The position numbers and the translations under genes were made by a program. Shown in pieces: positions 1 through 23,494 of a DNA stretch of 35,873 nucleotides. The notes below the pieces were generated by a model. The model was not told the origin of the DNA and did no database searches. It saw only the letters and a program-made list of their open reading frames with translations. Source of the stretch: Candidatus Zixiibacteriota bacterium (GTDB taxonomy: Bacteria > Zixibacteria > MSB-5A5 > GN15 > PGXB01); NCBI GenBank assembly GCA_020058225.1, contig JAGVEJ010000145.1, forward strand, positions 1 to 35,873, given 5' to 3'. Each line of letters begins with the position of its first letter. Position 1 is the stretch's first letter.

Positions 1-2958
1 ACAGGTGAGGTGAAACTTCACGCCCAATCAGGAAGTGTTACCCGGGATATTTCATTGAGGGTATTGCCGGCGGAATTGGGCGAGTTGAAATTAGATATTC
101 AGCCAACGCAATTTATTGGTAACCCCATTATCGGTCCGGCGACTATTTTTGCTCTTGATATCTATGGAAATTTAAAGACTGATTTTGATGCCTCGAAGAC
201 GCCGGTGCAATTGACTGTGGACACAGGTGCATTCAATTCTTCGCGGATAGAATCGAAAGAGAGTTTCAAGAATGGTGTGGCTGATATCAGCAAGATGAAT
301 ATTGTCTATGATGGGCATAGCGGGAAGAAGATACTTACTGTATCAAGCAATAATATTTCGGCATCGGCGAATTTGCTTTATAATGGAATTGAGTTTGAAC
401 CGGACAAACAGGGGCAACTTGATACAGTCTACGTGGGGGAAGCGAAGACATATGGGGGAATAGTCTTTAATAGAGGTAATCTAACTCCCCTTTATCCCGT
501 GGATATCGTCCAATACTTCCAATCATGCTCAAGTTCTTGCTATGATTCATCAGGTTTTAGAGCACTTGGCCCCGATAGCTCCCTCAGGCATTATATATCG
601 GTGCCGACGGATTCTTTGTCCCTGGATTCCGAGGATACTCTTCGGTTATTCACCATATCAAGATATCTATTTGATGGTGATACTATCTCTGTCGGGAGCA
701 GGAGATATATTCGAATAATTGCTCTTCAGGGATTGGTCCTGAAATATGTAGAAAGTTCTTTCTCCATCGATACTATAATTGCGCCATCCATAATTCGCAT
801 GATTTCGTTGCAATTTGAGGCCAATATAGATTTCGATCCATCAAGATATGCCATTGTATTCTATCCTTATTATTATTCCAGCGGGGATGACGAGGACGAT
901 GATTATGGAGGCTTAGAAGGTACGTATCAAAGCGGACGAATCGACGGCCGAATACTCACCCTGAATATGTCCTATGTAGAGATTCCAGACATAAAGGAAA
1001 AAGGATGGTTTGATGAAGGGTACAGGTCATTAAATGGCGGCCTTTCTGTTTATGAACGAGAGGGAAGGCATAGATATTGGAGGCAATTATATAATTTCGA
1101 TTCCGTTTATTTTGCCTTCGCGGCTGATTTGGCTTATGTGCCAAATTCTATAAAGCCAAAAGCAGTTTCCCCTGATCGGACAGTTTCTTTTGAATTCGAT
1201 ATAAATCTCACCGGCAAAATAGGCATAGTCTTGGATTCTGTTTTCCTCAAGAATGATTCTGCATTTCAGCTGGTAGATGAAGACACTATTCTATATTCTA
1301 AGATATTTTCGGACTCTCAAATTCTTGTGCCGGGAATTAATCATATTAGGACGGGAGATATTCATATTCCAGTGGGGTTGATTAATGAAAAGTCTTCTCC
1401 ACGATTAATCATCAAGGGCAGCGAGTTATATTCACAACGCACAGACACCGTTTCATTCGGTGATGAGCGCATTTCTGTCTCCGGCTTGCCGCAGATCAAG
1501 ATCACTTCCGCCGAGCTTCAGACTGTCAATCCCCCGTTTGTGAATTATGGACAGGAATTTTCGGTAAATATCAAAATCGCCAATCTTTCGTCGGATACAA
1601 TCCCAAATGCTTTTGCTTTCATCATGCCGGAGAATAGCAGTGATACTCTTGCGCTAAGTGATTTATTTGCTTTAATGCCTGCAGACACTATTGAAATTTC
1701 TCTTCCCCTTGTGGCGGATTCCATATCCAATCCCGCTAAGACATATCGGGCCTTTATTAATGCGCCAAATATTACAATCCTGCCGGCCGATGACAATACT
1801 GCCGTCGTGGCTATTCAATCGCCTGCCGAAATTGAGTTGGAATATATCTTGATGGGAACTTATCGCGAATATGTTGAATTCGGCCAATCATTCTCGTTAT
1901 TGGTTAAAATGGTTAATAATGGGGAGGCGATGGCATCGTCGGGCGAGGTTAGTATTAGCGCCGGGGATTTTGGTATCGAGAATCCTTCATTTGCTACCAT
2001 TGATGCCGACAGCTCCGTGCAATGGAATTTGACTGCGCCATCAATATCGGGAGATGCAGAATTGGAAATAAAATTGACGCGAATTCCTCAAGATAGAAAT
2101 ACCGGGCAACCGGCTGGAGTGAAAATTGGAGAACTATTTGTTCCCATAATTATTGAATCCAGTCAGGCTGAATTGGTTGTTAATGGTATTATAGGGAATG
2201 CGCCTCTTGTAATTGAGGGAACCACAAGCGAATTATTTACAGTTGAGCTGTATAACAATACCAATAATCCTCTTAATGAAATTGCGCTGAAATCGATTGA
2301 TATCGAACTAACCGATAGAAAAGGGAATATCATATCGCCTGATTCGATCGTAAGAATTGATTCAACATTTTTCATCGCAGGTGAACAAATATTGGCAACG
2401 GCTGAAATTGATGACAAAATTTTACGATTGGTGTTTACTGATTTCAAAATGCCGCCGGGCGGGGAAAGCGATATTACTTTCCGGACGAAATTTAATGAAA
2501 AGATTAGCCTTTCCGGCTTTGCATTGAAAGTCGAAAATCAGGATTTCAAGGCGATATTTATTTCAGGGCCAAGACTAAACCAGCCGGTGCCGGTGAGAGG
2601 CAAAATTGACAATAATTTCCTAATTTCCGGCAATTTCACGGTAACCCCGCCGTCCTTGGGACAATCATTGATGGTGCGAAATAATCCATTCAATCCGCAT
2701 ATTGAAAAGGCGGAAATCACATATAACCTTGAGAAAGATACCGATGTCTCATTGAGGATTTTTACTTTAACCGGCGAAAAGGTATATGAATCTGAATATG
2801 CCTCAGGGATGGTCGGCGCCAAGTTGGGAAATAACCCTATATCATGGAATGGCCAAAATGATAAGGGAAGAATTGTTCTGAATGGCGTGTATATTTTGAT
2901 TATTAAAGATAACAGTACCGGGCAAACCTACAGTTTAAAATTGGCGGTGATAAAGTAA
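1..2958 (+). CDS. Large secreted surface protein, 3' part (FlgD/type IX-like C-terminal domain)
   Basis: The reading frame is already open at base 1, so the gene starts outside the window; a GTG at 10 is merely the first start-like codon inside. About 985 codons are visible. There is no catalytic motif. The visible part is made of beta-rich, Ig-like stretches: a BIG/invasin-like module in the first 130 residues, a region with an acidic tyrosine-rich patch near residues 285-305, then two CARDB-like modules around 500-720. The last ~95 residues (from the RNNPFNPH motif to KLAVIK) form a FlgD-Ig/type IX-like C-terminal domain with the pattern NPFNP, LRIFTLTGEKV, WNGQNDKG and NGVYILII. Such tails mark extracellular proteins in FCB bacteria. 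The stop overlaps the next ATG by one base, so it is probably co-transcribed with the PorV-like gene. The exact function is unknown. Confidence 0.8.
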   Translation, partial: TGEVKLHAQSGSVTRDISLRVLPAELGELKLDIQPTQFIGNPIIGPATIFALDIYGNLKTDFDASKTPVQLTVDTGAFNSSRIESKESFKNGVADISKMNIVYDGHSGKKILTVSSNNISASANLLYNGIEFEPDKQGQLDTVYVGEAKTYGGIVFNRGNLTPLYPVDIVQYFQSCSSSCYDSSGFRALGPDSSLRHYISVPTDSLSLDSEDTLRLFTISRYLFDGDTISVGSRRYIRIIALQGLVLKYVESSFSIDTIIAPSIIRMISLQFEANIDFDPSRYAIVFYPYYYSSGDDEDDDYGGLEGTYQSGRIDGRILTLNMSYVEIPDIKEKGWFDEGYRSLNGGLSVYEREGRHRYWRQLYNFDSVYFAFAADLAYVPNSIKPKAVSPDRTVSFEFDINLTGKIGIVLDSVFLKNDSAFQLVDEDTILYSKIFSDSQILVPGINHIRTGDIHIPVGLINEKSSPRLIIKGSELYSQRTDTVSFGDERISVSGLPQIKITSAELQTVNPPFVNYGQEFSVNIKIANLSSDTIPNAFAFIMPENSSDTLALSDLFALMPADTIEISLPLVADSISNPAKTYRAFINAPNITILPADDNTAVVAIQSPAEIELEYILMGTYREYVEFGQSFSLLVKMVNNGEAMASSGEVSISAGDFGIENPSFATIDADSSVQWNLTAPSISGDAELEIKLTRIPQDRNTGQPAGVKIGELFVPIIIESSQAELVVNGIIGNAPLVIEGTTSELFTVELYNNTNNPLNEIALKSIDIELTDRKGNIISPDSIVRIDSTFFIAGEQILATAEIDDKILRLVFTDFKMPPGGESDITFRTKFNEKISLSGFALKVENQDFKAIFISGPRLNQPVPVRGKIDNNFLISGNFTVTPPSLGQSLMVRNNPFNPHIEKAEITYNLEKDTDVSLRIFTLTGEKVYESEYASGMVGAKLGNNPISWNGQNDKGRIVLNGVYILIIKDNSTGQTYSLKLAVIK

Positions 2959-4787
2959 TGAGAGCGCCGGTAAGAATATTTTTGCTGATCGTCATAGGTC
3001 TTATTTTGTCGATCGGTTTGGCATTTGCCGGCGATGCCGGGCGGGAGTCGCAGTTTTCTCTCGGAGCCGGAGCCCGGGCTCTTGGCATGGGTGGTGGTTT
3101 TGTCGGTCTTGCCGATGATGCCTCAGCCATATATTGGAATCCGGCGGCGCTTTCTTGTCTTGATAATCAAGAAATAAGCCTTCTGCATGTCACTCTTTTT
3201 GAGAGCTCAATTTATGATGTCGCCAACTATGTTTATCCGCATCCCAAATTGGGGGGATTTGGATTTTCTTTTATGAGAATGGGAACGAGCAATATTATTA
3301 GAAGGCAGGATTGGGAAAATCTTGGGGAATTCTCATATTCAGTATGGCAGATGATGTTTGGATATGGTCGCACTCTTGAAGGTGGATATTCAATCGGATC
3401 GACCCTGAAAGTGGTGGGCCAAACAATGGATAATAGTTCATCAAACGGCCTTGGCCTGGATATTGCGTTTTATAAGGCTTTCAATAAAAATATTTCTGTC
3501 GGCGTTAATTTCCAGGATATGCTTGCGCCACGCCTTCATCTTGGGGATACCCTTGAAAATATTCCAATGGCGATTCTTGGGGGAGCGGCATTCAAAAATA
3601 TTGAATTGGGCGATGGCTTCCGCCATAATTTGGCATTGGAATTTGAAAAGCCGGAAAACCGCTCGCTCAAGTTGCATATCGGCGTAGAATCCGTATATCG
3701 TAACTATCTGGCTTTGCGGACAGGATATGACAGAGATAACCTATCGTTTGGCTTTGGTATATTCTATCAGCGGTTCCGTCTTGATTATGCCTATAAATTT
3801 ATGGACGGCCTTACTGATTCTCATAGGTTGGGTCTTTCAATAAACATCGGAGTATCCGTCTCTGAAAAAATAAAAAGGGAAAAAGAGCTTGAGAGCGCCC
3901 GCGGCAGTACCCTTATATTGGATGACCGGAAGCGGCAATTCCAATTCTTTAAAGAAATTGCAGACAAATATTATCATAATAATTCAAACGATTCGGCTTA
4001 TATTTATTATCACCGGGCGCTCGCTTTTAATGAAGATGATAAGGACAGCAAACATCGCATCTCCAATATAGAAAAAACGCGAAAATCGCTTCAAGAAACA
4101 GCTCAAAAGGAGATGTCGAGAATTGATATTGTCCAGCCTATACTTGACGGCTATTATTCGCAAGCGGAAAGTTTTGCCAGTAAGGGCGCCTATGTGGCTT
4201 CATTGGAGATGATTGATCTCGCACTTCAGGCTTCACCGGATAATCCCAAATTCATCTCCCTCAGAGACAGTACAATACAATTACGTGAAAAGGAAATTAA
4301 GCGCTTGATGGATGATGCTTTAAAATCAGAAAAAGACGGCCGCTATGCCGATGCCCTCACTTTTTATAATCGTATTCTTGAATTATCTCCCAATAATACC
4401 GCAGTCCGGCAGTTGATAAGCAGAACATCCAACGAATTAAATAATGCCCAACTTATTAGCAAAGGTATGGAGCAGTTTACGCTGGGGAATTTTTCGGGCG
4501 CCAAAAATAGTTTTGAAGAGGCTCTGAAAACCGATCCTAACAATCCGGTGGCAAAAGAATATCTGGATAAGATTTTATCTCTGATGAAAGAAGTCTCCGA
4601 GCTTGAAGATCTGCAGAAGGATGAATCTGTCTGGAAATTATATTTGGCGGCTTTGGAGCATTTCCGCAACGGTGATTACGAAAAGGCCATCCAACTTTGG
4701 GAAGAAGTGCTGAAATATTATCCCGGCAACAAAAATACCATCAACAATATCGAACAGGCCAAACTAAGGTTAAAAACCAGGGAATAA
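2958..4787 (+). CDS. PorV/UPF0164-family outer-membrane barrel fused to TPR repeats
   Basis: The 609-residue protein begins with a signal peptide (hydrophobic stretch about residues 6-22, cleavage likely after AFA near 24). Residues ~25-300 match the PorV/UPF0164 pattern: SLGAGARALGMGGGFVGLADDASAIYWNPAAL-type opening, followed by alternating beta strands ending in RLDYAYKF and HRLGLSINIG. Residues ~320-609 are helical TPR-like repeats, for example ALTFYNRILELSPNN and AIQLWEEVLKYYPGN. In the type IX system of Bacteroidota, PorV shuttles CTD proteins to the attachment machine; the neighbour ending at the same base carries such a CTD-like tail. A barrel with a periplasmic TPR tail is not the standard PorV architecture, so the role here is inferred. 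An alternative is a generic long-chain-fatty-acid-transporter-like barrel. Confidence 0.82.
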   Translation: MRAPVRIFLLIVIGLILSIGLAFAGDAGRESQFSLGAGARALGMGGGFVGLADDASAIYWNPAALSCLDNQEISLLHVTLFESSIYDVANYVYPHPKLGGFGFSFMRMGTSNIIRRQDWENLGEFSYSVWQMMFGYGRTLEGGYSIGSTLKVVGQTMDNSSSNGLGLDIAFYKAFNKNISVGVNFQDMLAPRLHLGDTLENIPMAILGGAAFKNIELGDGFRHNLALEFEKPENRSLKLHIGVESVYRNYLALRTGYDRDNLSFGFGIFYQRFRLDYAYKFMDGLTDSHRLGLSINIGVSVSEKIKREKELESARGSTLILDDRKRQFQFFKEIADKYYHNNSNDSAYIYYHRALAFNEDDKDSKHRISNIEKTRKSLQETAQKEMSRIDIVQPILDGYYSQAESFASKGAYVASLEMIDLALQASPDNPKFISLRDSTIQLREKEIKRLMDDALKSEKDGRYADALTFYNRILELSPNNTAVRQLISRTSNELNNAQLISKGMEQFTLGNFSGAKNSFEEALKTDPNNPVAKEYLDKILSLMKEVSELEDLQKDESVWKLYLAALEHFRNGDYEKAIQLWEEVLKYYPGNKNTINNIEQAKLRLKTRE

Positions 4788-4850
4788 TTTAAACAGCGGC
4801 GGGGCTCTTTTATATTGAAATAAATCCGGTTGACCTGTACCTTTTAGGCA

Positions 4851-6857
4851 ATGTTTCGGAAACCAATAAAAGAAATCAACGCCGAATACCTGGCCGAAGA
4901 GAAATTTCTCCTTTCCATTCAAAATCTGGTTCGAGAGACCTGCGCCGGCGCAGGTATGTCTCGCAAAGATGTCAGCGCTATTACATTGGCAATCGAAGAG
5001 GGCGTCACCAACATTATCAGGCATGCCTATTTATATGAAAAGGGCATGGTTCGAATCCGAATCGTAATATTCCAAAAAAGAGTTATCTTTTCCTTAATCG
5101 ACGAGGGACGATCTTTTCATCCGGAAAGTAGCGAAAAGCTTGATTTGAAAAAAATGGTTGATTCCGGGCGCAAAGGCGGACTTGGATTTTACATGATCGG
5201 CAAAATAATGGATTCGGTCGAATATATTTCTACGCCGAAATTTAATGAATTACGGATGACCAAGAGGATATCATCTCAGCCGGAACAATCCCGCTTGTTT
5301 TTTAGCAGAATGTTTACTTTAAGAGCCAAGTTTTCGATTTATACCTTTGTTATTATGCTGATTATAATTGCGAGTTCCTATCTTTTTATCAACAACAGAA
5401 GTGTAAAGAAAATATATGAGCACCTCCATGATACGGTAGGTTCCCTCTCAAAGACGCTGGCGGCCCAGATGGCAGGACATATATTGAATCATCGCTCCGA
5501 TGTGGAATTTGATGAGCTGGTTATAAGCTACCTTGCCGCCAATCCGGAATTGGCCACCATAGTTCTTACCGACTCGAGCGGAAACATCCTTGCCGATAGC
5601 CGCGATATTAGAAACCTTCGCAAAAAGTATAATGCGCCGGAGGGGATAAATCCCGAAAAATTTGGCCGACCCCAGCCATATAATGAAAATGGTGAAAAAT
5701 ATTATTATATGGTTAAGCAGGTTATTGGCGGCGATAATCTCTTTGGACATGTGCATATCTCTTATTCCGATCATCTTTATATGCAAGAGATTTCTTCGGA
5801 ACGAAAGAAAATTATATTGCTTACAATGATAGGACTGGCGATAGGGATAGGCGGGATATATCTTTTGTCGAATTATTTTGTCAGTCCAATCATCAGAATA
5901 ACCGAACGAGTCCGTAAATTTAGTTCCGGCGATATAGACACCGAACTTCCCCCCGAAGGGGTGGAGGAATATTTTGAAATTTCCAAAGCGCTGAATGAAA
6001 TGCTCAGCCGATTGCGCCGGGATAGAGAAAATATTGTGGAACGCGAAAAAGTTGCCAAAGAAATAGAGGTTGCCGGTCAGATTCAGAGAATGCTTTTGCC
6101 GGTCAGGCTTCCACAAATCCCGGGATTAAGTCTTGATGCCTATTATCGGGCGGCCTCGCGAATCAGCGGCGATTTGTATGATATTTTCCAAATTGACAAA
6201 TCCAATTATTGTCTTTTGATAGCTGATGTTTCCGGCAAAGGTGTTCCCGCCTCCCTGGTAATGTCGGTCGTGAGGACAGTGATTCGGATAGAGGCGAAAG
6301 GCAAGCTATCTTCTCATCAGATATTGGTTGATGTGAATGAATTTATAAAAGATGATATTCCCCCAGGCATTTTTATTACAGCCTTTCTCGCCGTTTTTAA
6401 TTCTGATACCCGTCAAATGAATTTTGTTTCTGCAGGGCACAATCCACTGATTTATCTAAGAAATGGTTCCCCCAAAGCCGAACTTATCAATCCCGCCGGC
6501 GCCCCTCTTGGCTTGCCTCTCGAGGACAGTAATGGATTCGCAAAAAAACTGGTGGAAAAAAATATGGAAATAGGCAAAGGGGATTTGATGTTTATTTATA
6601 CCGATGGCGTAACCGAGTCTATGAATCGTAATAACCAAAAATACGGTTTGGAGAGGTTGACAACCCTTTTTAATGATAAAATTTCCCCCAATAATTACTC
6701 GGAACCACGCCAAATATCCGAGGTGATTCTTGCCGATATTGACCAATATGCTGGAATGGCGGTTCAAAATGATGATATTACATTTATTACGATTTGTTCT
6801 GTAAATTATAATGTGGAGGGGTCGGGAAAGTCAGTGGAATCGGAAAATATCGGCTAA
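4851..6857 (+). CDS. Membrane anti-sigma-type kinase / PP2C (SpoIIE/RsbU-type) phosphatase fusion
   Basis: This 668-residue protein joins two opposing enzymes of sigma-factor partner switching. Residues 1-140 are a GHKL (RsbW/SpoIIAB-like) ATPase domain with an N box (EEGVTNIIRHAY, 49-60), a G1 box with D84 in DEGRSF, and a glycine-rich G2 box at 109-116. Two membrane segments (about 162-180 and 320-340) flank a ~140-residue periplasmic sensor loop; a HAMP segment (341-393) and a short helix follow. Residues ~405-648 are a PP2C/SpoIIE phosphatase with all metal aspartates visible: SGD (D441), ADVSGKG (D459), YTDG (D585) and NDD (D641/D642). Such phosphatases remove phosphate from STAS antagonists, and a STAS gene lies directly downstream. 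Having the kinase domain at the N terminus ahead of the membrane segments is unusual. Start ATG has only a weak AGG upstream. Confidence 0.88.
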   Translation: MFRKPIKEINAEYLAEEKFLLSIQNLVRETCAGAGMSRKDVSAITLAIEEGVTNIIRHAYLYEKGMVRIRIVIFQKRVIFSLIDEGRSFHPESSEKLDLKKMVDSGRKGGLGFYMIGKIMDSVEYISTPKFNELRMTKRISSQPEQSRLFFSRMFTLRAKFSIYTFVIMLIIIASSYLFINNRSVKKIYEHLHDTVGSLSKTLAAQMAGHILNHRSDVEFDELVISYLAANPELATIVLTDSSGNILADSRDIRNLRKKYNAPEGINPEKFGRPQPYNENGEKYYYMVKQVIGGDNLFGHVHISYSDHLYMQEISSERKKIILLTMIGLAIGIGGIYLLSNYFVSPIIRITERVRKFSSGDIDTELPPEGVEEYFEISKALNEMLSRLRRDRENIVEREKVAKEIEVAGQIQRMLLPVRLPQIPGLSLDAYYRAASRISGDLYDIFQIDKSNYCLLIADVSGKGVPASLVMSVVRTVIRIEAKGKLSSHQILVDVNEFIKDDIPPGIFITAFLAVFNSDTRQMNFVSAGHNPLIYLRNGSPKAELINPAGAPLGLPLEDSNGFAKKLVEKNMEIGKGDLMFIYTDGVTESMNRNNQKYGLERLTTLFNDKISPNNYSEPRQISEVILADIDQYAGMAVQNDDITFITICSVNYNVEGSGKSVESENIG

Positions 6858-6940
6858 GAGTTTGAGGATTAAGATAATAACGGGGGCAATGGGGGGATTG
6901 ATCCAAAAAATTTTAATTCCCTATTTTTTACTTTTTTAAT

Positions 6941-6953
6941 TATAATAAACTAT
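6941..6953 (+). promoter_or_regulatory. Perfect -10 box TATAAT implying a leaderless start for the STAS gene
   Basis: TATAAT lies at 6941-6946 and the ATG of the STAS gene begins only 7 bases after it. A transcript starting at the usual distance from a -10 box would begin at or next to the ATG, and no Shine-Dalgarno sequence precedes it. The upstream spacer is very AT-rich with no clear -35 element. Inference from sequence only. Confidence 0.45.
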
Positions 6954-7652
6954 ATGGAAAATATCAGAATTTCCGTTTCCGAAAGTGGTCAAGAAGACAG
7001 TTTTTCGGTAATTAGGGTTGATGGCGTAATTGATACTCTCACGGCCACCAAACTCGAAGAGGTCTTGGATAGGCTCCTTCAGCGGGATAGATTTAATATT
7101 ATTCTTGATCTGGCCGGCGTGGATTATATTTCATCGGCAGGCTGGGGGATATTCATTTCCCGCATAAAAGAGATCAGGGAAAATAAGGGTGATATCAAAC
7201 TGGCCAACATGATTCCCAACGTATTTGAGATTTATGAACTTCTCGAGTTTGATAATATTTTAGGCGCCTATGAGAATATAAATTCAGCCAAAACAGCTTT
7301 TAATGCTTCGCCCGGAGCGGAGCCGGCAAAAAAAAAAGACCAAGCGGTAGGAGCCCGGACAATAGTTGAGGAATTGCCATCTGGATTTGAGATGGTATCC
7401 AAATCAAAGGGCAATTTGCCGTCGGGTGGTATGGAGTCGAAAGCTCCGGATTCTCAATTGGAGGAGGCGGTGCTTAATGCCGTAAGAGAAGACCCATTTT
7501 ATTCAATTTCGGAGATTAAATTGGTCATTAGAGAAACAGCGCCAAATTGCCGAATAGGATGGTGGGGAATATTCAATATTCTAAGGAGACATAAACTGAT
7601 TTTCCGCCGCTCCCGTTTTCTTTATGCCCGCAAATGGCGGAAACGTTCCTAA
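6954..7652 (+). CDS. STAS anti-sigma factor antagonist with C-terminal winged-helix-like domain
   Basis: Residues 1-~115 of 232 are a STAS domain of the RsbV/SpoIIAA type: it opens with alternating strands (VIRVDGVIDTLTATKLEEVL) and carries YISSAGWGIF, in which S61 aligns with the phosphorylated serine of SpoIIAA. A low-complexity linker (about 118-165, with a lysine run) leads to a C-terminal domain of ~65 residues (LEEAVLNAVRED... to the end) rich in aromatic and basic residues, with the helix-helix-strand look of a winged helix (ISEIKLVIRE, WGIFNILRRHKLI). The STAS part should be phosphorylated by an anti-sigma kinase and dephosphorylated by a PP2C enzyme; both activities are encoded just upstream. 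The added basic tail could bind DNA or a partner; that is inference. No sigma factor gene is in the window. Confidence 0.85.
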   Translation: MENIRISVSESGQEDSFSVIRVDGVIDTLTATKLEEVLDRLLQRDRFNIILDLAGVDYISSAGWGIFISRIKEIRENKGDIKLANMIPNVFEIYELLEFDNILGAYENINSAKTAFNASPGAEPAKKKDQAVGARTIVEELPSGFEMVSKSKGNLPSGGMESKAPDSQLEEAVLNAVREDPFYSISEIKLVIRETAPNCRIGWWGIFNILRRHKLIFRRSRFLYARKWRKRS

Positions 7653-7708: not shown

Positions 7709-9352
7709 ATGTTGGAAAAGGTATTAATAGGTTTTCTCGCATTTTTGGTGGTGATTTTATTGTACCTTGCTTGGCGCCGGCGGCGTGATGATAAAGGTAC
7801 CATTCAGCTAAGTGGGGCGGCCATAGATGAATTAATGAAGGCTATGCTGAACAATATAAAAGCGGGCCGGATTTCGGATATAGCCGGCATGGTCTCAAAT
7901 GTGCTTAAAGAATATCTTGCCTGCGAAAAAATATTATTCTTGAAATATTATAGAGCGCATCTTGAGGTCAATTTTATGCATGGCCTGCTGAATCCTCAAA
8001 GAGAAAAATTACGTCTTAAGGTGACCCCCGACTTGCAGAATAAACTTAAAGCCTTTAATAGGATTGCAGATATAAATGAACTATCACCCGTTCTGCCTGA
8101 TGCCAATTTGAAATATCTTCAAAATCTTGGTTTAGGTTATTATTTCCCTGTTTATCTTAGGGATAATTTATATGGATTGTATTTTGTCAAAACCAATCTG
8201 TCGCTTAACAATCCCTCCTTGCAGTTTTTATCGACGGCGTTGGCATTCAGCCTTTCCACCGCATATCATATAGTAGTTCAAGAACAGCAGCTAAAAAAGT
8301 ATGAAGACAGAGTTCAAAAATTAATGGCCGACCATGGCAAGAAGTCGCATCCAAAAACAGCTCCCTCGCGCGAGGTTATAAGATTACTCAAAATTAAAAA
8401 TAGCCGTCAACTTATTCCGGAATTGATGGCCACTTTACGAAAGGAATGCGAGTTTTCCAAGTTGGCATTTTATGTTCAGTCGGATGCCTCTGATGAGTCG
8501 ATTATCTCAGCATGTTGGAATATTGATGCCGACTCTGATCGAACTCTTAAGGAGAATTATGTCAATCTGGCGGAGAATATTGAAACAGATAGAATATTCA
8601 GCTTGGATGAATTATCAAAATCAGAAAAAGGATTTGTTAATCAAATTCGAAAGTTAAAAGATAATGAACTGAAATATCTGACGGCAATCAACTGGGGGGG
8701 GAAGAAGAAAGCCATTCTGGCCTGGAATGGCCAGATGGCGGTTGAAGATGTTACTGCACGCTTGAAGTGTTTTAGCGCTGAAGCGATACCATTAATGGAA
8801 AACGCCGTGCAGTTTGAAAAGGTTGAGGAGATGTGTCATACCGATGGCCTTACCGGCTTACATAATTTTCGATATTTTCAGAAGCGCATGTATGAAGAAT
8901 TCATGCGTGCTCAGCGATATAAACGAAATCTCGCTCTATTGATTTTTGATATTGATGACCTTAAACTGGTGAATGATAAGTATGGACATTTGGCTGGAGA
9001 TGCCTTGCTAAAGTCGTTTGGTCAAATATTATCGGATTCTGTTCGTTCCATTGATGTGGTTTCAAGATATGGAGGGGATGAGTTTTGTTTGATAATGCCC
9101 GAGGCTAATAGGCAAAAGGCCGGCTTTTTTATGGAGAGAATTCGAGAGAAGATTGCGAGCAATCAAGTGGAATCTCATTCGCTCTGGGGAGAAGAGAAAT
9201 ATTCGGTGTCTATTGGGGCGGCGGTTTATCCGATAGATGCCAATACTGTCGAGAATCTGATAAATTCCGCCGACATGGCCCTGTTGAAGGCAAAATCGGA
9301 GGGGAGAAATTGTTCAAAGCTATATACTTCCGAGATGGAACGAAAAGAATGA
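7709..9352 (+). CDS. Membrane-anchored GAF-like/GGDEF diguanylate cyclase
   Basis: This 547-residue protein has one N-terminal membrane helix (about 5-21) followed by an arginine cluster, which puts the rest in the cytoplasm. Residues ~35-190 and ~225-365 look like two GAF-type sensor modules, without recognisable ligand motifs. Residues ~375-540 are a GGDEF domain with TDGLTGLHNFRYF, DIDDLKLVND and an intact GGDEF active site (455-459). An RxxD inhibitory site (R446-D449) lies five residues ahead of the active site, so the enzyme is predicted to make c-di-GMP and be subject to product inhibition. No EAL or HD-GYP domain is fused. Its place between partner-switching genes and the exopolysaccharide genes suggests it feeds c-di-GMP into that output. 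Confidence 0.9.
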   Translation: MLEKVLIGFLAFLVVILLYLAWRRRRDDKGTIQLSGAAIDELMKAMLNNIKAGRISDIAGMVSNVLKEYLACEKILFLKYYRAHLEVNFMHGLLNPQREKLRLKVTPDLQNKLKAFNRIADINELSPVLPDANLKYLQNLGLGYYFPVYLRDNLYGLYFVKTNLSLNNPSLQFLSTALAFSLSTAYHIVVQEQQLKKYEDRVQKLMADHGKKSHPKTAPSREVIRLLKIKNSRQLIPELMATLRKECEFSKLAFYVQSDASDESIISACWNIDADSDRTLKENYVNLAENIETDRIFSLDELSKSEKGFVNQIRKLKDNELKYLTAINWGGKKKAILAWNGQMAVEDVTARLKCFSAEAIPLMENAVQFEKVEEMCHTDGLTGLHNFRYFQKRMYEEFMRAQRYKRNLALLIFDIDDLKLVNDKYGHLAGDALLKSFGQILSDSVRSIDVVSRYGGDEFCLIMPEANRQKAGFFMERIREKIASNQVESHSLWGEEKYSVSIGAAVYPIDANTVENLINSADMALLKAKSEGRNCSKLYTSEMERKE

Positions 9353-9436
9353 ATTTTATTGCTCAAACAAAGATTAAGTATGTATAATAACCGCCTAAAT
9401 AGATAATTGCAATATGCCGATTTTATAGAATGAATA

Positions 9437-9586
9437 CCAGAGGATGTGTTGAAAAAGCCCCGTTCTCGCGCCATAGTCCGCCGCGGCGGATCTCCCTACG
9501 GAATTGTCTTAGTTTTTCGATCGGGATCCGGCAACTGCCGAACCAACCGCGGGTTGAGTGGGTTTTTCAACAACCCCCAGAGGATG
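9437..9586. mobile_element. MITE-like element with inverted ends and 10-bp flanking direct repeats
   Basis: CCAGAGGATG occurs at 9437-9446 and again at 9577-9586, as a target duplication would. Between them are 130 bases whose ends are inverted: TGTTGAAAAAGCCC at 9447-9460 and GGGTTTTTCAACA at 9560-9572. The interior has a 14-bp perfect palindrome TCCGCCGCGGCGGA (9477-9490) and a small CGGCA/TGCCG hairpin (9529-9540). It has no coding capacity and is more GC-rich than its surroundings. The right end is followed by four extra bases before the direct repeat, so the exact boundary is uncertain. TGTTGAAAAA-type ends are common in insertion sequences; the parent element is not in the window. Confidence 0.6.
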
Positions 9587-9611
9587 GTTGACTAATTATC
9601 GAAGAGGAAAT

Positions 9612-10634
9612 ATGGAAGGAAAATCAAAGCAGGGAAGATATTCAATCTTGGGTCTGATCATAATATTTCTATTTATCCCGCTAACGGTATTTTCACAGTC
9701 AGAACAATCTTATCAGGTTGGTTCCGACGATGTTCTTGAGATTAAATTTTGGCAGGATCGTACGCTTGATGCTGTTGTCAAAGTAAGACAGGACGGCAAA
9801 ATTTCCCTGGATATTGCCGGCGAAATTGATGCGGCGGGATTGACGACTTCCGATCTTGAGAAAAAAATTGTGAAACAGATATCACGCTATAATAGCGCCA
9901 TTTCCCAAGCTGTGGTGAGAGTAATAGAGTTTAATAGCCGGCGGGTATTTGTTTCCGGACAGATAAGGACTCCCGGAAGATATACTTTTGAAAAAATACC
10001 TGATTTGTGGACAATCATAAATGAAGCGGGCGGAGTGACTGAGTTTGGTGACCTAACCCGAGTCCTGATTATACGCGGTGGAGCCGATGCCGGCAAGGTT
10101 GAAGTGGTGAATGTTTCGGGACTTGTTACATCAGGCAAAATGAATGAACTGCCGAAATTGCGGGCTGGTGATACCATAGAAATCCCCCGAACCCCTGCCG
10201 GACTTCCGGCCCCTGCTTTATCTGACCAATCGGCTCAAAAAAATCTTTTTTATATTGTCGGTGAAGTAATAAACCCCGGCTCAATTCCGTTGGAAAAAAA
10301 TACCGACTTGCTCGATGGAATTGCACTGGCGGGTGGCCCATCGGAATTTGCAGATTTGAGAAAGGTGACGGTAATATCCAAGGATGGATTAAAAACCCAA
10401 ACGCTTAAGGTCAATCTCAAAAGGTACCAGGAGAGCGGTCGGCCAGGAAGATATTTCCTGCGTCCTGAGGATACGATTATTCTTCAACGAGCCAGTCGTG
10501 GATTTTTGGGGATTGAATCGATTACCGGTTGGGTGGCGGTAATTGCAGGAATCGGCTCTGTGGTATTGATTGCCGATCGGCTTGGATGGTTTGGTTTAGG
10601 CGAGGATGCAACTCCTACGGCAACCGCACCATGA
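9612..10634 (+). CDS. Wza-type polysaccharide export protein (Poly_export + SLBB)
   Basis: The ATG at 9612 is chosen because GAGGAAA sits just ahead of it and a signal peptide follows at once (hydrophobic residues 11-27, ending LTVFSQ); the open frame extends upstream only into the MITE-like element. The 340-residue product has a polysaccharide export domain (about 33-110, starting YQVGSDDVLEIKFWQD), a first SLBB domain (about 112-190, VFVSGQIRTPGRY) and a second (about 230-300, FYIVGEVINPGSI). A hydrophobic helix (about 308-332) near the C terminus could be the outer-membrane helix, as in Wza. It should form the periplasm-to-surface channel for an exopolysaccharide. No cysteine lipobox is seen. 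It is the first gene of the exopolysaccharide block. Confidence 0.88.
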   Translation: MEGKSKQGRYSILGLIIIFLFIPLTVFSQSEQSYQVGSDDVLEIKFWQDRTLDAVVKVRQDGKISLDIAGEIDAAGLTTSDLEKKIVKQISRYNSAISQAVVRVIEFNSRRVFVSGQIRTPGRYTFEKIPDLWTIINEAGGVTEFGDLTRVLIIRGGADAGKVEVVNVSGLVTSGKMNELPKLRAGDTIEIPRTPAGLPAPALSDQSAQKNLFYIVGEVINPGSIPLEKNTDLLDGIALAGGPSEFADLRKVTVISKDGLKTQTLKVNLKRYQESGRPGRYFLRPEDTIILQRASRGFLGIESITGWVAVIAGIGSVVLIADRLGWFGLGEDATPTATAP

Positions 10635-10675
10635 TTGGCCGTCCTAATAAACTGATGGGTAGAGAGGAGAATAAG

Positions 10676-11797
10676 ATGGAATCATATAGGCTCGACAGCA
10701 AAATAGTTGAAGAGGATAAGGAATATCTGATTCAGACCGTCAATGATTCAAATGAGGGGGTCATAAAGACATCGCTTTTTGTAAATGGAGAGTTGCTTGA
10801 TTCCTGTGTATTGCCTCATTCTGATGAGATCAGCGATGGAGATTTGCTGAATCTTGTTAAAAACACTCATGTCGATAAAAAAACCGAACTTGAGTATTTG
10901 CTTCGAAGCTATAAAGATATAGTCGGCGGCGGCAAGCCGGAAATGATGTATCATCTTGGCGTCGCTCTGTTCTTTAAGAGAATGTATTATCAGGCGAGGC
11001 AATTATTTCAATCCGCTGTAAAACAGAAACATGATTATCATGAGGCCTTTTTCTTCTTAGCTCAATCGGAACTTGCTTCAGGTCATATTGATGCGGCCAT
11101 AAAAGCCGGAATTAAGGCCGTGGAATTGCGGCCTCATTTTGCCGACTATCGCAATATTTTGGGAGAAGCCTACTTAACCTCGGGTTCATGCAAAAGGGCG
11201 GTTATCGAGTTTGAAGAAGCCATAAGAGAAAATATTTATTATGCCGATGCCTATTTTGATCTTGCCATAGCCTATTTGCTGAATGCCGTGAACCGGGAGG
11301 ATTTTGAGATGTATCCCGACCTCACCACCCGGACGATTGATGTACTAAAAAAAGCGACACTTATTAATCCAAATTATAAAACATCCGCATACGACGAAGC
11401 GGTGGCCGCGCTGACTGCAGGGCAACTTAAAAGGGCGCATTCTCTTTTAAAGGCCGTTCGTGAAGAAAAAAAGGAGATGTATAGGCAGGAAAAATCGGCG
11501 CATTTTAATAGATTTCTAATGTATACGGATTGGATTTCGTATAATAATATTATAGAGAGAATAAACCATTTAGAGCGAGAAATTGAAAAAAATCCCGGAT
11601 ATGTTGACCTGTACAATGAACTTGCGGTTTCATATTTACATCAGGCAAAGTTCAGCTGGCAGAAAGGTATAGAGCATTTCAAAAAAGCATTGGATATAAA
11701 CCCGCAATTGGGCAAGGCGAAAAGGTCGTTGGAATTATCCGAGGAATTTTCATTGAAACTGGCCGATGCCGTTTTTGATATAACCGAGAGACAATGA
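10676..11797 (+). CDS. TPR protein of the exopolysaccharide cluster
   Basis: The start at 10676 is favoured by a strong GAGAGGAG about 6 bases upstream; an in-frame ATG at 10631 overlapping the previous stop is the alternative. The 373-residue product has a ~75-residue N-terminal part of unknown fold (FVNGELLDSCVLPH), then TPR units from about residue 85 (MMYHLGVALFFKRMYYQARQ, AFFFLAQSELASGHIDAA, YRNILGEAYLTSGSCKRA, AYFDLAIAYLLNA) and a last one near 320-345 (LYNELAVSYLHQAKF). There is no signal peptide or membrane helix, so it is probably cytoplasmic. It sits between the export channel and the tyrosine kinase, so it may be an assembly or scaffold protein for the synthesis machine. No enzyme motif is visible. 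Confidence 0.8.
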   Translation: MESYRLDSKIVEEDKEYLIQTVNDSNEGVIKTSLFVNGELLDSCVLPHSDEISDGDLLNLVKNTHVDKKTELEYLLRSYKDIVGGGKPEMMYHLGVALFFKRMYYQARQLFQSAVKQKHDYHEAFFFLAQSELASGHIDAAIKAGIKAVELRPHFADYRNILGEAYLTSGSCKRAVIEFEEAIRENIYYADAYFDLAIAYLLNAVNREDFEMYPDLTTRTIDVLKKATLINPNYKTSAYDEAVAALTAGQLKRAHSLLKAVREEKKEMYRQEKSAHFNRFLMYTDWISYNNIIERINHLEREIEKNPGYVDLYNELAVSYLHQAKFSWQKGIEHFKKALDINPQLGKAKRSLELSEEFSLKLADAVFDITERQ

Positions 11798-11811
11798 TAT
11801 AGGAGCAAACA

Positions 11812-12519
11812 TTGGCCAAAGAAAAGTCCAAAATTTCAATAAGTGATTTGTATGATGCCGAAGCTCCTGAGGCTTCGGAATTTCGCCGGCTACTGCATAA
11901 TCTAAATAATGTCCTTTCTGAGAATGACAAGCGGGCAATTTTAGTGACCTCCGCTATGGGTTCGGAGGGAAAATCAATTATATCTTCATATCTGGCGATG
12001 ACATCATCAAGACATAAGAATAAGAAGACACTTTTGGTGGATTTTGACCTTCGACGGCCAACCATACATAAACTTTTTTCAATGCCAAGGGATGGCGGCT
12101 TATCAGATGTCTTATTAAATGGCCAATCTGCCAGAAAGATGATTAAAAATTCGTCGCTTGAAAATCTGGATATTTTGACCGCCGGCAAGGCGATTCCCAA
12201 TCCCTCTGATATTATCAATGGCCCTGCCATTCATAAAATCATTGAGGAAATGAAATTTTATTATGAATTGATTGTTTTGGATTCATCCCCGATGATACCC
12301 GTATCAGACCCATTATTGATATTGGAAGAGGTCGATGGTGTGGTGATTGTGGTAAAGGCGGGAGCGACTCCGCGCGGGGTGATTCGTAGAGCTTGTGATT
12401 TATTAATTCCTTATAAGAAAAAAGTAATGGGCGTGGTTGTCAATAATCTAACCCATTCCTTACCCTATTACTATAACTACAATTACTATGGTTATCAATA
12501 TAAACCCACGAAAGAGTAG
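11812..12519 (+). CDS. Cytoplasmic BY-type tyrosine kinase (CpsD/CapB-like) with tyrosine tail
   Basis: Translation starts at TTG 11812 behind AGGAG (11801-11805); no ATG is as well placed. The 235-residue protein is a bacterial tyrosine autokinase of the P-loop MinD-like type: Walker A GSEGKS (50-55), Walker A' LLVDFDLRRPTIHKLF (74-89) and Walker B LIVLDSSP (153-160). The C-terminal tail has eight tyrosines in twelve residues (219-230), the autophosphorylation cluster typical of Wzc/CapB. These kinases cycle phosphorylation to control polysaccharide polymerisation and export. Here the kinase is a separate protein with no membrane helix; its usual Wzz-like membrane activator is not in the window. 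The residue after the Walker A serine is Ile rather than the more usual Thr. Confidence 0.9.
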   Translation: MAKEKSKISISDLYDAEAPEASEFRRLLHNLNNVLSENDKRAILVTSAMGSEGKSIISSYLAMTSSRHKNKKTLLVDFDLRRPTIHKLFSMPRDGGLSDVLLNGQSARKMIKNSSLENLDILTAGKAIPNPSDIINGPAIHKIIEEMKFYYELIVLDSSPMIPVSDPLLILEEVDGVVIVVKAGATPRGVIRRACDLLIPYKKKVMGVVVNNLTHSLPYYYNYNYYGYQYKPTKE

Positions 12520-12557
12520 GCAAGGGTGTCTCATCCTTACTGCTTCGTCAAGTAATT

Positions 12558-13433
12558 ATGACTATGATTACGAATATATTAACGGTCGATTTGGAAGACT
12601 GGTTTGTCGTAGAAAATCTTAAGGGGAATATTGATTATCAAGAATGGGACGAGCTTCCTTCAAGAGTTGTGGGAAATACCGAAAGGCTTCTTGAACTTTT
12701 CAGTCAATATAATGTAAGAGCGACATTTTTTGTCCTTGGTTGGGTGGCGGATAGATTCCCGCATTTGGTCAGTAATATTGCCCATAATGGTCATGAAATC
12801 GCCTGTCATAGCTTTCGGCATCTAATGGTGAGTAGTGTAGGACAGGATGTATTCCGCTCTGATACGGAAATGGCGATTCAAGCCATAAAAAGAGCCTGCG
12901 GTATTGCCCCGATGGGCTATCGCGCCCCAAGCTGGTCGATAAATTCATCCACACCATGGGCTTTTGAAATTTTGGCCCAATTGGGGTTTATGTATGACTC
13001 CTCAATTTTTCCGGTTAAGCATGATATTTATGGCGACCCGCATGGTCCCCGTGAAATATTTCGAATGCGGTTGGAAAGTGGAAGATTACTCTATGAAATC
13101 CCGGCATCGACCATAAATATTTTGGGTAAAAATCTGCCGGTATGCGGCGGCGGCTATCTGCGCCATTCACCGCTTTGGTACACAATCGGCATCATGAAAA
13201 GATTGAACAACGCGGGAAAGCCGGCTGTTGTCTATGTTCATCCATGGGAGTTTGATAATGAATTACCTCGTTTGAAAGGGTTGACGATGTTTCAGAAATA
13301 TCGCCAATATGGAGCTATTCCTAACCTCTTAAGGAAACTGGACAGGTTATTGAATGAATTTGAATTCTGCCCAGCCCGGGAATATATTGATAAATTGACG
13401 CGCAAACCGATTGGATTTGAAAGAAATGTATAG
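12558..13433 (+). CDS. XrtA-type polysaccharide deacetylase (NodB homology, DUF3473)
   Basis: The 291-residue protein opens with TVDLEDWF (catalytic D11 region), has the zinc-ligand motif HSFRH (H84 and H88), GYRAPSWSI (R122), and the C-terminal HPWEFD-type motif and YRQYGAIPNLLRKL of the DUF3473 extension. This combination is characteristic of the polysaccharide deacetylases found with exosortase/PEP-CTERM exopolysaccharide clusters. It should remove acetyl groups from an N-acetylated sugar in the exported polymer or its precursor. No signal peptide is present, so it probably acts at the cytoplasmic side, as is usual in this subfamily. An ATG two codons later is an equally possible start. 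It overlaps the DUF362 gene at its 3' end. Confidence 0.9.
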   Translation: MTMITNILTVDLEDWFVVENLKGNIDYQEWDELPSRVVGNTERLLELFSQYNVRATFFVLGWVADRFPHLVSNIAHNGHEIACHSFRHLMVSSVGQDVFRSDTEMAIQAIKRACGIAPMGYRAPSWSINSSTPWAFEILAQLGFMYDSSIFPVKHDIYGDPHGPREIFRMRLESGRLLYEIPASTINILGKNLPVCGGGYLRHSPLWYTIGIMKRLNNAGKPAVVYVHPWEFDNELPRLKGLTMFQKYRQYGAIPNLLRKLDRLLNEFEFCPAREYIDKLTRKPIGFERNV

Positions 13434-14511
13434 AAGCCAAGTCGCAGTATTAAAAACTGATTCGGCCAATATTATTGGGGATTATCGCAAACTTCTCGAG
13501 TTGGTTAACTACCGTTCAATAATTAATCCCGATAAGAAAACCGTCATAAAGCTGAATCTTTCTTGGACAAAATATTTCCCCGCATGCTCGTCACAGCCTT
13601 GGCAGGTGGAAGGAATGGTTAAGACTCTTGTCGAGGATGGCTACTCTCGCAAAAAATTATTTCCTTTGGAAAATAAGACAGTGGTTACCAACCCATGGAA
13701 AGGGGCAAAGAATAATCGCTGGTTGCCGGTACTTGATAAATATGGATTAACCTTTACGGCTCTTCCCGAAGTTGAATGGACCGTCTATAATTTCAAAGAA
13801 AAATTGCTCAAATTGAATGAAATTTTTCCCGAGGGGATTGAGATTCCCAAGATATATATCGGCAAACAGATAATTCATCTCCCCACCATTAAGACCCACG
13901 GTCATTCAACCACCACCGGCGCCATCAAGAACTCTTTTGGCGGATTGCTGAAAGAGGTTCGTCACTATGCCCACAAATATATGCATGAGGTACTGGTTGA
14001 CTTGATGATTATGCAAAAGGAATTGCATCCGAGCATCTTGGCGGTTATGGATGGAACGGTATGCGGTGACGGCGCCGGACCTAGGACGATGACGCCGCAT
14101 GTCAAGAATTTCATTCTGGCATCAGGAGATTCAGTCGCCATTGATGCCATCTCCGCACAATTAATGGGATTTGATCCAATGTCTATTCCTTATATTAGAA
14201 TGTGTCATGAAAGGGGACTGGGAGTAGGGGACCCAAAAGAGATTGAAATTTTGGGACATGATATTACCGGAATCAATTTTGGCTTCCACACTAAGAAATC
14301 ATTTGTAATATGGGGCGACCAGTTGCTTCGCAAGGGACCCCTTAAATTCCTCGAAAAAATAGCTCTTCATTCTCCGCTGGTTTTCTGGGCGCCTATGGCG
14401 AGCAATATTTATCATGATTGGTTCTGGTATCCGATTGTAGGGAAATCAATTATTCGCAAATTTTCTCAGACTGAGTGGGGCCGGTTATTTAAGGCGTATA
14501 AGAAGAAATAA
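13426..14511 (+). CDS. DUF362-domain protein
   Basis: The 361-residue protein matches the DUF362 pattern: VIKLNLSW near the start, HLPTIKTHGHSTTTGAIKN (about 150-168) with the ensuing SFGGLLKE, MDGTVCGDGAGP (about 210-221) and DSVAIDAISAQLMGFDP (about 238-254). It lacks the 4Fe-4S cysteine motifs carried by some family members. The biochemical role of DUF362 is not settled. The ATG at 13426 overlaps the deacetylase stop, so the two are translationally linked; a TTG at 13411 in frame is a less likely start. The context suggests a role in modification or synthesis of the exported polymer, but that is only guilt by association. The C-terminal ~60 residues contain aromatic stretches (SPLVFWAPM, YHDWFWYPIVG) that could touch a membrane. 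Confidence 0.85.
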   Translation: MYRSQVAVLKTDSANIIGDYRKLLELVNYRSIINPDKKTVIKLNLSWTKYFPACSSQPWQVEGMVKTLVEDGYSRKKLFPLENKTVVTNPWKGAKNNRWLPVLDKYGLTFTALPEVEWTVYNFKEKLLKLNEIFPEGIEIPKIYIGKQIIHLPTIKTHGHSTTTGAIKNSFGGLLKEVRHYAHKYMHEVLVDLMIMQKELHPSILAVMDGTVCGDGAGPRTMTPHVKNFILASGDSVAIDAISAQLMGFDPMSIPYIRMCHERGLGVGDPKEIEILGHDITGINFGFHTKKSFVIWGDQLLRKGPLKFLEKIALHSPLVFWAPMASNIYHDWFWYPIVGKSIIRKFSQTEWGRLFKAYKKK

Positions 14512-23398: not shown

Positions 23399-23494
23399 AT
23401 GCCAATAGGTTAGCAAAAATTCCTGTATAAAGTATGGGAATTGCATTGCCGATAAGTTAAGATAGGGAATAAACCAATAAGTTTGGTGGAAAAA

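Follow-up and report, generated by a model that had tools for sequence, protein, structure and literature searches.

The gene at 4851-6857 of the window (the whole 35,873-nucleotide stretch of DNA analysed here) encodes a membrane protein in which an RsbW-like GHKL domain and a SpoIIE/RsbU-type PP2C domain flank a transmembrane sensor. The intact motifs of both domains support a kinase and an opposing phosphatase on one chain, with activities predicted from the families to which they belong. A STAS gene and a diguanylate cyclase gene follow on the same strand, and this neighbourhood suggests that the switch acts on a c-di-GMP enzyme and a surface polysaccharide and not on a sigma factor.

Domains and residues of the kinase-phosphatase and its STAS neighbour

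The features of the window on which the argument draws are:

10-4787, + strand: upstream pair, a large surface protein (C-terminal FlgD/CHU_C-like sorting-type region) and a PorV-family beta-barrel with TPRs
4851-6857, + strand: predicted bifunctional membrane protein, GHKL kinase - TM - periplasmic sensor - TM - HAMP - PP2C, 668 aa (Pfam, catalytic residues, orthologues)
4917-5264, + strand: RsbW/SpoIIAB-like GHKL domain, aa 23-138 (HATPase_c_2, E 5.8e-21)
5325-5879, + strand: two TM helices (about aa 159-181 and 321-343) flanking a periplasmic sensor of ~140 aa (hydropathy)
5862-6017, + strand: HAMP domain, aa 338-389 (PF00672, E 3.2e-8)
6198-6794, + strand: SpoIIE/RsbU-type PP2C phosphatase domain, aa 450-648 (PF07228, E 9.4e-40)
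6954-7652, + strand: STAS-HTH protein, 232 aa (STAS, E 7.6e-17; AlphaFold2 model)
7134-7136, + strand: predicted phospho-acceptor Ser61 in YISSAGWG (alignment to TM1442, SpoIIAA and RsbV; invariant)
7449-7646, + strand: C-terminal four-helix basic HTH-like domain, aa 166-231 (AlphaFold2, profile homology, charge)
7709-9352, + strand: diguanylate cyclase, N-terminal TM and GGDEF domain, candidate STAS target (PF00990, E 4.1e-44)
9396-9423, + strand: sigma28-like promoter element TAAA-N16-GCCGATTT before the polysaccharide export gene
9558-14511, + strand: polysaccharide cluster of a Wza/SLBB export protein, TPR protein, tyrosine autokinase, XrtA-type polysaccharide deacetylase and DUF362 protein (NCBIfam, Pfam)

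The initial annotation had described an N-terminal RsbW-like ATPase with N, G1 and G2 boxes, a two-helix periplasmic sensor with HAMP and a complete PP2C domain in one chain, followed by a STAS protein that retains its phospho-acceptor serine. Its coordinates for the two genes were right and we recovered each of these elements. The boxes of the GHKL domain are E50-GVT-N54 (N), D84-x-G86 (G1) and R107-x-GGLG (G2). Kinase residues E50, N54, H58, D84, G86 and G109/G110/G112 are unchanged in 18 relatives with identities down to 27%, as are D441, D459, D585 and D641/D642 of the PP2C domain in the same 18. The metal-binding aspartates are all present and the SpoIIE domain scores 137 bits against a cut-off of 25; the GHKL domain lies below the curated RsbW equivalog cut-off (NF003144, 60.8 vs 145 bits). 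Between the two hydrophobic segments, the sensor is weakly Cache-like, with an sCache_3_2 match at E 0.045 in the window protein and in 6 of the 18 relatives (best 1e-6). Orthologues are full-length and 64-71% identical within the family, and the same layout recurs across the phylum; the architecture is therefore not a chance one.

An alignment of the STAS protein places S60-S61 at the phosphoserine region of TM1442, SpoIIAA and RsbV, with S61 itself matching the phosphoserine of the latter two, and the motif SSAGWG is present in all 106 STAS relatives. The protein exceeds the TIGR00377 cut-off (62.3 vs 53.45 bits), and SpoIIAA and RsbV are its closest structural matches.

Co-occurrence and gene neighbourhood

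Loss of the association between the two genes in relatives would have spoken against the initial annotation, but the association held. Among 132 genomes of the phylum Zixibacteria (partial kinase matches in fragmented assemblies included), 103 encode both the kinase-phosphatase and the STAS-HTH protein, 4 only the former, 3 only the latter and 22 neither. The two are thus jointly present or absent in 125 genomes, with one only in 7 (Fisher p 5e-18 with genomes treated as independent of phylogeny; shared ancestry inflates the apparent strength of this value). Families f12-f14, as a group, have neither gene. In 82 of the 103 genomes with both, no more than 4 kb separates the kinase gene from the STAS gene downstream of it on the same strand; the other 21 are contig breaks or have unlinked genes (f3, most of f17, f18, f19). 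This linkage, and the shared retention or loss, agree with the adjacent STAS protein being the likely substrate, as had been proposed.

The diguanylate cyclase at 7709-9352 was absent from the earlier description. In 88 of 94 informative genomes the STAS gene is followed, in the same orientation, by a gene for a GGDEF protein (12 further genomes were left out of this count because they offered too little sequence). The GG[DE]EF motif is kept in 84 of 88 cyclase relatives and the I-site RxxD in all 86 that were scored. Only three GGDEF proteins of the window's genome exceed the cut-off, so the STAS-cyclase neighbourhood is not expected by chance. In families f17-f19 the cyclase gene still follows the STAS gene although the kinase gene is mostly elsewhere, and the pairing is therefore partly independent of the kinase. 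There are exceptions: in f3 the cyclase stays beside the kinase and the STAS-HTH gene is elsewhere, f7 has no cyclase nearby, and Calditrichota and Latescibacterota carry the kinase and STAS without a cyclase within the stretch examined. Because of these cases, the cyclase may not be the ancestral target.

By their profile matches, the genes headed by the cyclase are an XrtA/PEP-CTERM-type polysaccharide cluster, with TIGR03006 (304.6 vs 276.2) and TIGR01007 over their cut-offs and TIGR03027 and TIGR03018 under theirs. The family of the TPR protein (10529-11797 of the window; L085, L095, L120, L127, L128) recurs near the STAS gene, also at loci without a cyclase. In one genome (G119, locus L086, 5839-9455) a PilM-like type IV pilus gene follows the kinase gene, which has moved away from the polysaccharide locus. 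Upstream, the pair of surface protein and PorV-family TPR genes hints that the sensor may be linked to the export of surface proteins; such a pair also precedes the kinase-phosphatase gene at L119-L126, even in KSB1 and Calditrichota.

Candidate outputs of the switch

We give about an even chance to a model in which the membrane switch sets the phosphorylation of the STAS-HTH protein and one of its phospho-forms activates the adjacent cyclase, promoting the neighbouring polysaccharide. The kinase-phosphatase would sit in the inner membrane, where its periplasmic sensor would act through the HAMP domain and a helical linker on the PP2C domain, countered by the GHKL kinase of the same chain; linker control has been proposed for RsbU-type phosphatases (PMC12143880). 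With one transmembrane sensor serving both activities, the switch could be set by a single extracellular cue. The phospho-state of S61 would decide whether the STAS protein binds the cyclase, and one form would bind and activate it, so that production of the neighbouring polysaccharide is promoted; by comparison with SiaC and SypA this is most likely the unphosphorylated form. The choice of active form is a guess by majority because the precedents differ in sign: unphosphorylated SypA promotes biofilm, unphosphorylated SiaC activates SiaD (PMC8457831) and it is phosphorylated HsbA that binds HsbD (PMC6482189). Kinase and phosphatase activity on S61, and control by the sensor and HAMP domain, are predicted from the protein families. 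The cyclase as target and the polysaccharide as output are suggested by synteny, and the adjacency of the cyclase may reflect merely a shared polysaccharide locus.

The C-terminal domain of the STAS protein, which the initial annotation had also passed over, suggests another or an additional output. In the AlphaFold2 model the linker (aa 122-163) is disordered and the domain itself (aa 166-231; pLDDT 90.9, pTM 0.78) consists of four helices with no wing. It is basic (net charge +3 to +13) and the STAS part is acidic. Foldseek returned mainly DNA-binding HTH proteins, none of them significant (best E 1.9), and we rejected a winged-helix identity on the strength of this search and the wingless model. 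We call the domain HTH-like because profile comparison shows it to be homologous (E 1.6e-6) to the HTH_32-like half of the HTH extensions found after PP2C in deeper lineages. Of 106 relatives, 104 have it, 69 as a fusion and 35 as the product of a separate next gene; the two without it are G050, where the contig ends, and G007. The deeper lineages (L072, at 3758-6580 and 3001-3780, and L074, L075, L077, L079, L080, L120) carry a C-terminal HTH_23/28 plus HTH_32-like extension on the PP2C protein, and a ParA-like ATPase gene sits between the PP2C-HTH gene and the STAS gene. This pairing of a membrane phosphatase bearing an HTH with a ParA-like ATPase could place the complex on DNA. The Latescibacterota homologue (L120, 5974-10380) joins kinase, sensor, HAMP, PP2C, HTH and three STAS domains in one chain of 1468 aa, with two further STAS genes downstream.

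The STAS-HTH protein might then itself be the output, a DNA-binding regulator that the GHKL domain holds at the membrane when it is unphosphorylated and frees when it is phosphorylated, or the reverse, to act on promoters such as that of the polysaccharide cluster. The near-universal presence of the basic domain in relatives and its homology to the PP2C-fused HTH domains found beside the ParA-like gene favour this reading; against it stand the Foldseek result, the four helices without a wing, and the intergenic regions looked at, where no conserved palindrome was recognised. The inspected part of the family f1 alignment of these regions contains conserved promoter-like elements but no clear palindromic operator for an HTH. 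We regard this reading as unlikely, though a serious possibility. A dual output, in which the STAS part regulates the cyclase and the HTH part binds nucleic acid, coupling c-di-GMP synthesis to gene expression, appears to us rather unlikely.

The initial annotation had spoken of a sigma-switch. In the classical form of such a partner switch a sigma factor is held by the GHKL domain until unphosphorylated STAS protein releases it, and the RsbW/RsbV-type folds are those expected. A sigma of the SigB/F/G group exceeded the curated TIGR02980 cut-off in none of the 132 genomes and in 1 of 14 named control genomes. The region-3 sigmas of the window's genome are one RpoD/RpoS-like and one FliA/WhiG-like protein, FlgM was searched for and not found, and the conserved neighbourhood holds no sigma or anti-sigma gene. 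The FliA/WhiG-type sigma does lend this reading something, since families f1 and f3 have a sigma28-like element ahead of their polysaccharide genes. Such an element lies before the export gene in 12 of 81 loci (a count in which one place figures twice) vs 0.4 in shuffles, and genome-wide the pattern has 27 matches vs 11 for its reverse. After these searches (region-3 sigmas, SigB/F/G, FlgM) we do not favour a sigma-factor target and consider it quite improbable; with no SigB/F/G sigma over the cut-off and a cyclase after the STAS gene in 88 of 94 informative genomes, the sigma-switch label is poorly supported. A second sigma28 (FliA/WhiG)-like element lies at 23428-23455 of the window, before a LysM lytic transglycosylase gene. 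RsbW-like and PP2C domains are also encoded close together on contigs C214, C141 and C96 of the window's genome (G000), where several RsbW-like/PP2C switches thus coexist without a SigB/F/G-type sigma.

That the two catalytic domains act on different substrates, for instance the STAS protein of another locus, with the STAS neighbourhood incidental, is very improbable: the genome does encode several more PP2C, GHKL and STAS proteins, and in f3 and most of f17-f19 the kinase and STAS genes lie apart, but the two share presence or absence in 125 of the 132 genomes, those with separated genes among them.

Domain order and comparison with known systems

The initial annotation had remarked that the order of domains differs from the usual phosphatase-then-kinase fusions, and among the best 80 loci from 84,980 species genomes this difference is real. 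The order kinase-sensor-HAMP-PP2C was seen there only in Zixibacteria, Latescibacterota (L120), KSB1 (L121, L122), Calditrichota (L123-L125) and a few unplaced MAGs (L126 among them). Two further loci, L127 and L128, are truncated or incomplete, and the simple gene caller did not settle L129. The remaining loci among the 80 have PP2C before the kinase, separate genes or PP2C alone. These 80 are the highest-ranking results of a capped search and do not amount to an exhaustive count. A kinase-first order is not unprecedented, as SypE of Vibrio fischeri is a kinase-REC-PP2C protein (PMC3610818) that has been described as unique in domain architecture (PMC10120452). Beyond SypE, we found no kinase-HAMP-PP2C protein and no STAS-HTH fusion in the open-licence literature.

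SypE-SypA is similar in having an N-terminal RsbW-like serine kinase, a central regulatory part and a C-terminal PP2C domain on one chain, a STAS substrate and control of a polysaccharide biofilm (PMC3610818, PMC10120452). SypE differs in its central REC domain, in place of which the window protein has TM-sensor-TM-HAMP; SypA is a lone STAS domain, and the pair has no established cyclase partner in the literature examined. SiaABCD of Pseudomonas aeruginosa likewise combines a HAMP-PP2C phosphatase, a kinase, a small phospho-switch protein and a diguanylate cyclase in one locus (PMC8457831), but its kinase SiaB is separate and SiaC is a DUF1987 protein with a phospho-threonine. We rejected membership of this system, as the matches to SiaA (40.9 vs 700 bits) and SiaD (142.8 vs 290 bits) fall short and the small protein matches STAS, not DUF1987. 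In HsbR-HsbA-HsbD of P. aeruginosa (CrsR-CrsA in Shewanella) a PP2C and kinase chain also controls a STAS protein that binds a cyclase (PMC6482189), but HsbR is soluble and has the order REC-PP2C-kinase, and the system is also tied to FlgM/FliA and RpoS. The RsbU-RsbW-RsbV and SpoIIE-SpoIIAB-SpoIIAA systems of Bacillus use the identical three domain families, as three separate proteins that act on SigB or SigF, whereas here no such sigma exceeds the cut-off in any of the 132 genomes. Rv1364c of Mycobacterium tuberculosis has PP2C and RsbW-like domains in one chain and provides the best chain match (PDB 3ke6), but its PP2C domain precedes the kinase domain and, in the aligned chain, the two are not separated by a TM-HAMP sensor.

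Each part of the arrangement is already known, as is partner-switch control of a diguanylate cyclase. Within the reach of our tools, what is new is a membrane version of the SypE order, an HTH tail on the STAS protein and the phylum-wide conservation of both with cyclase and polysaccharide genes. The order shared with SypE occurs here in a membrane protein, across most of a phylum and also in its neighbours, the HTH tail suggests an output for which we found no description in the papers retrieved, and the conserved STAS-cyclase pair would extend partner-switch control of c-di-GMP far beyond Proteobacteria.
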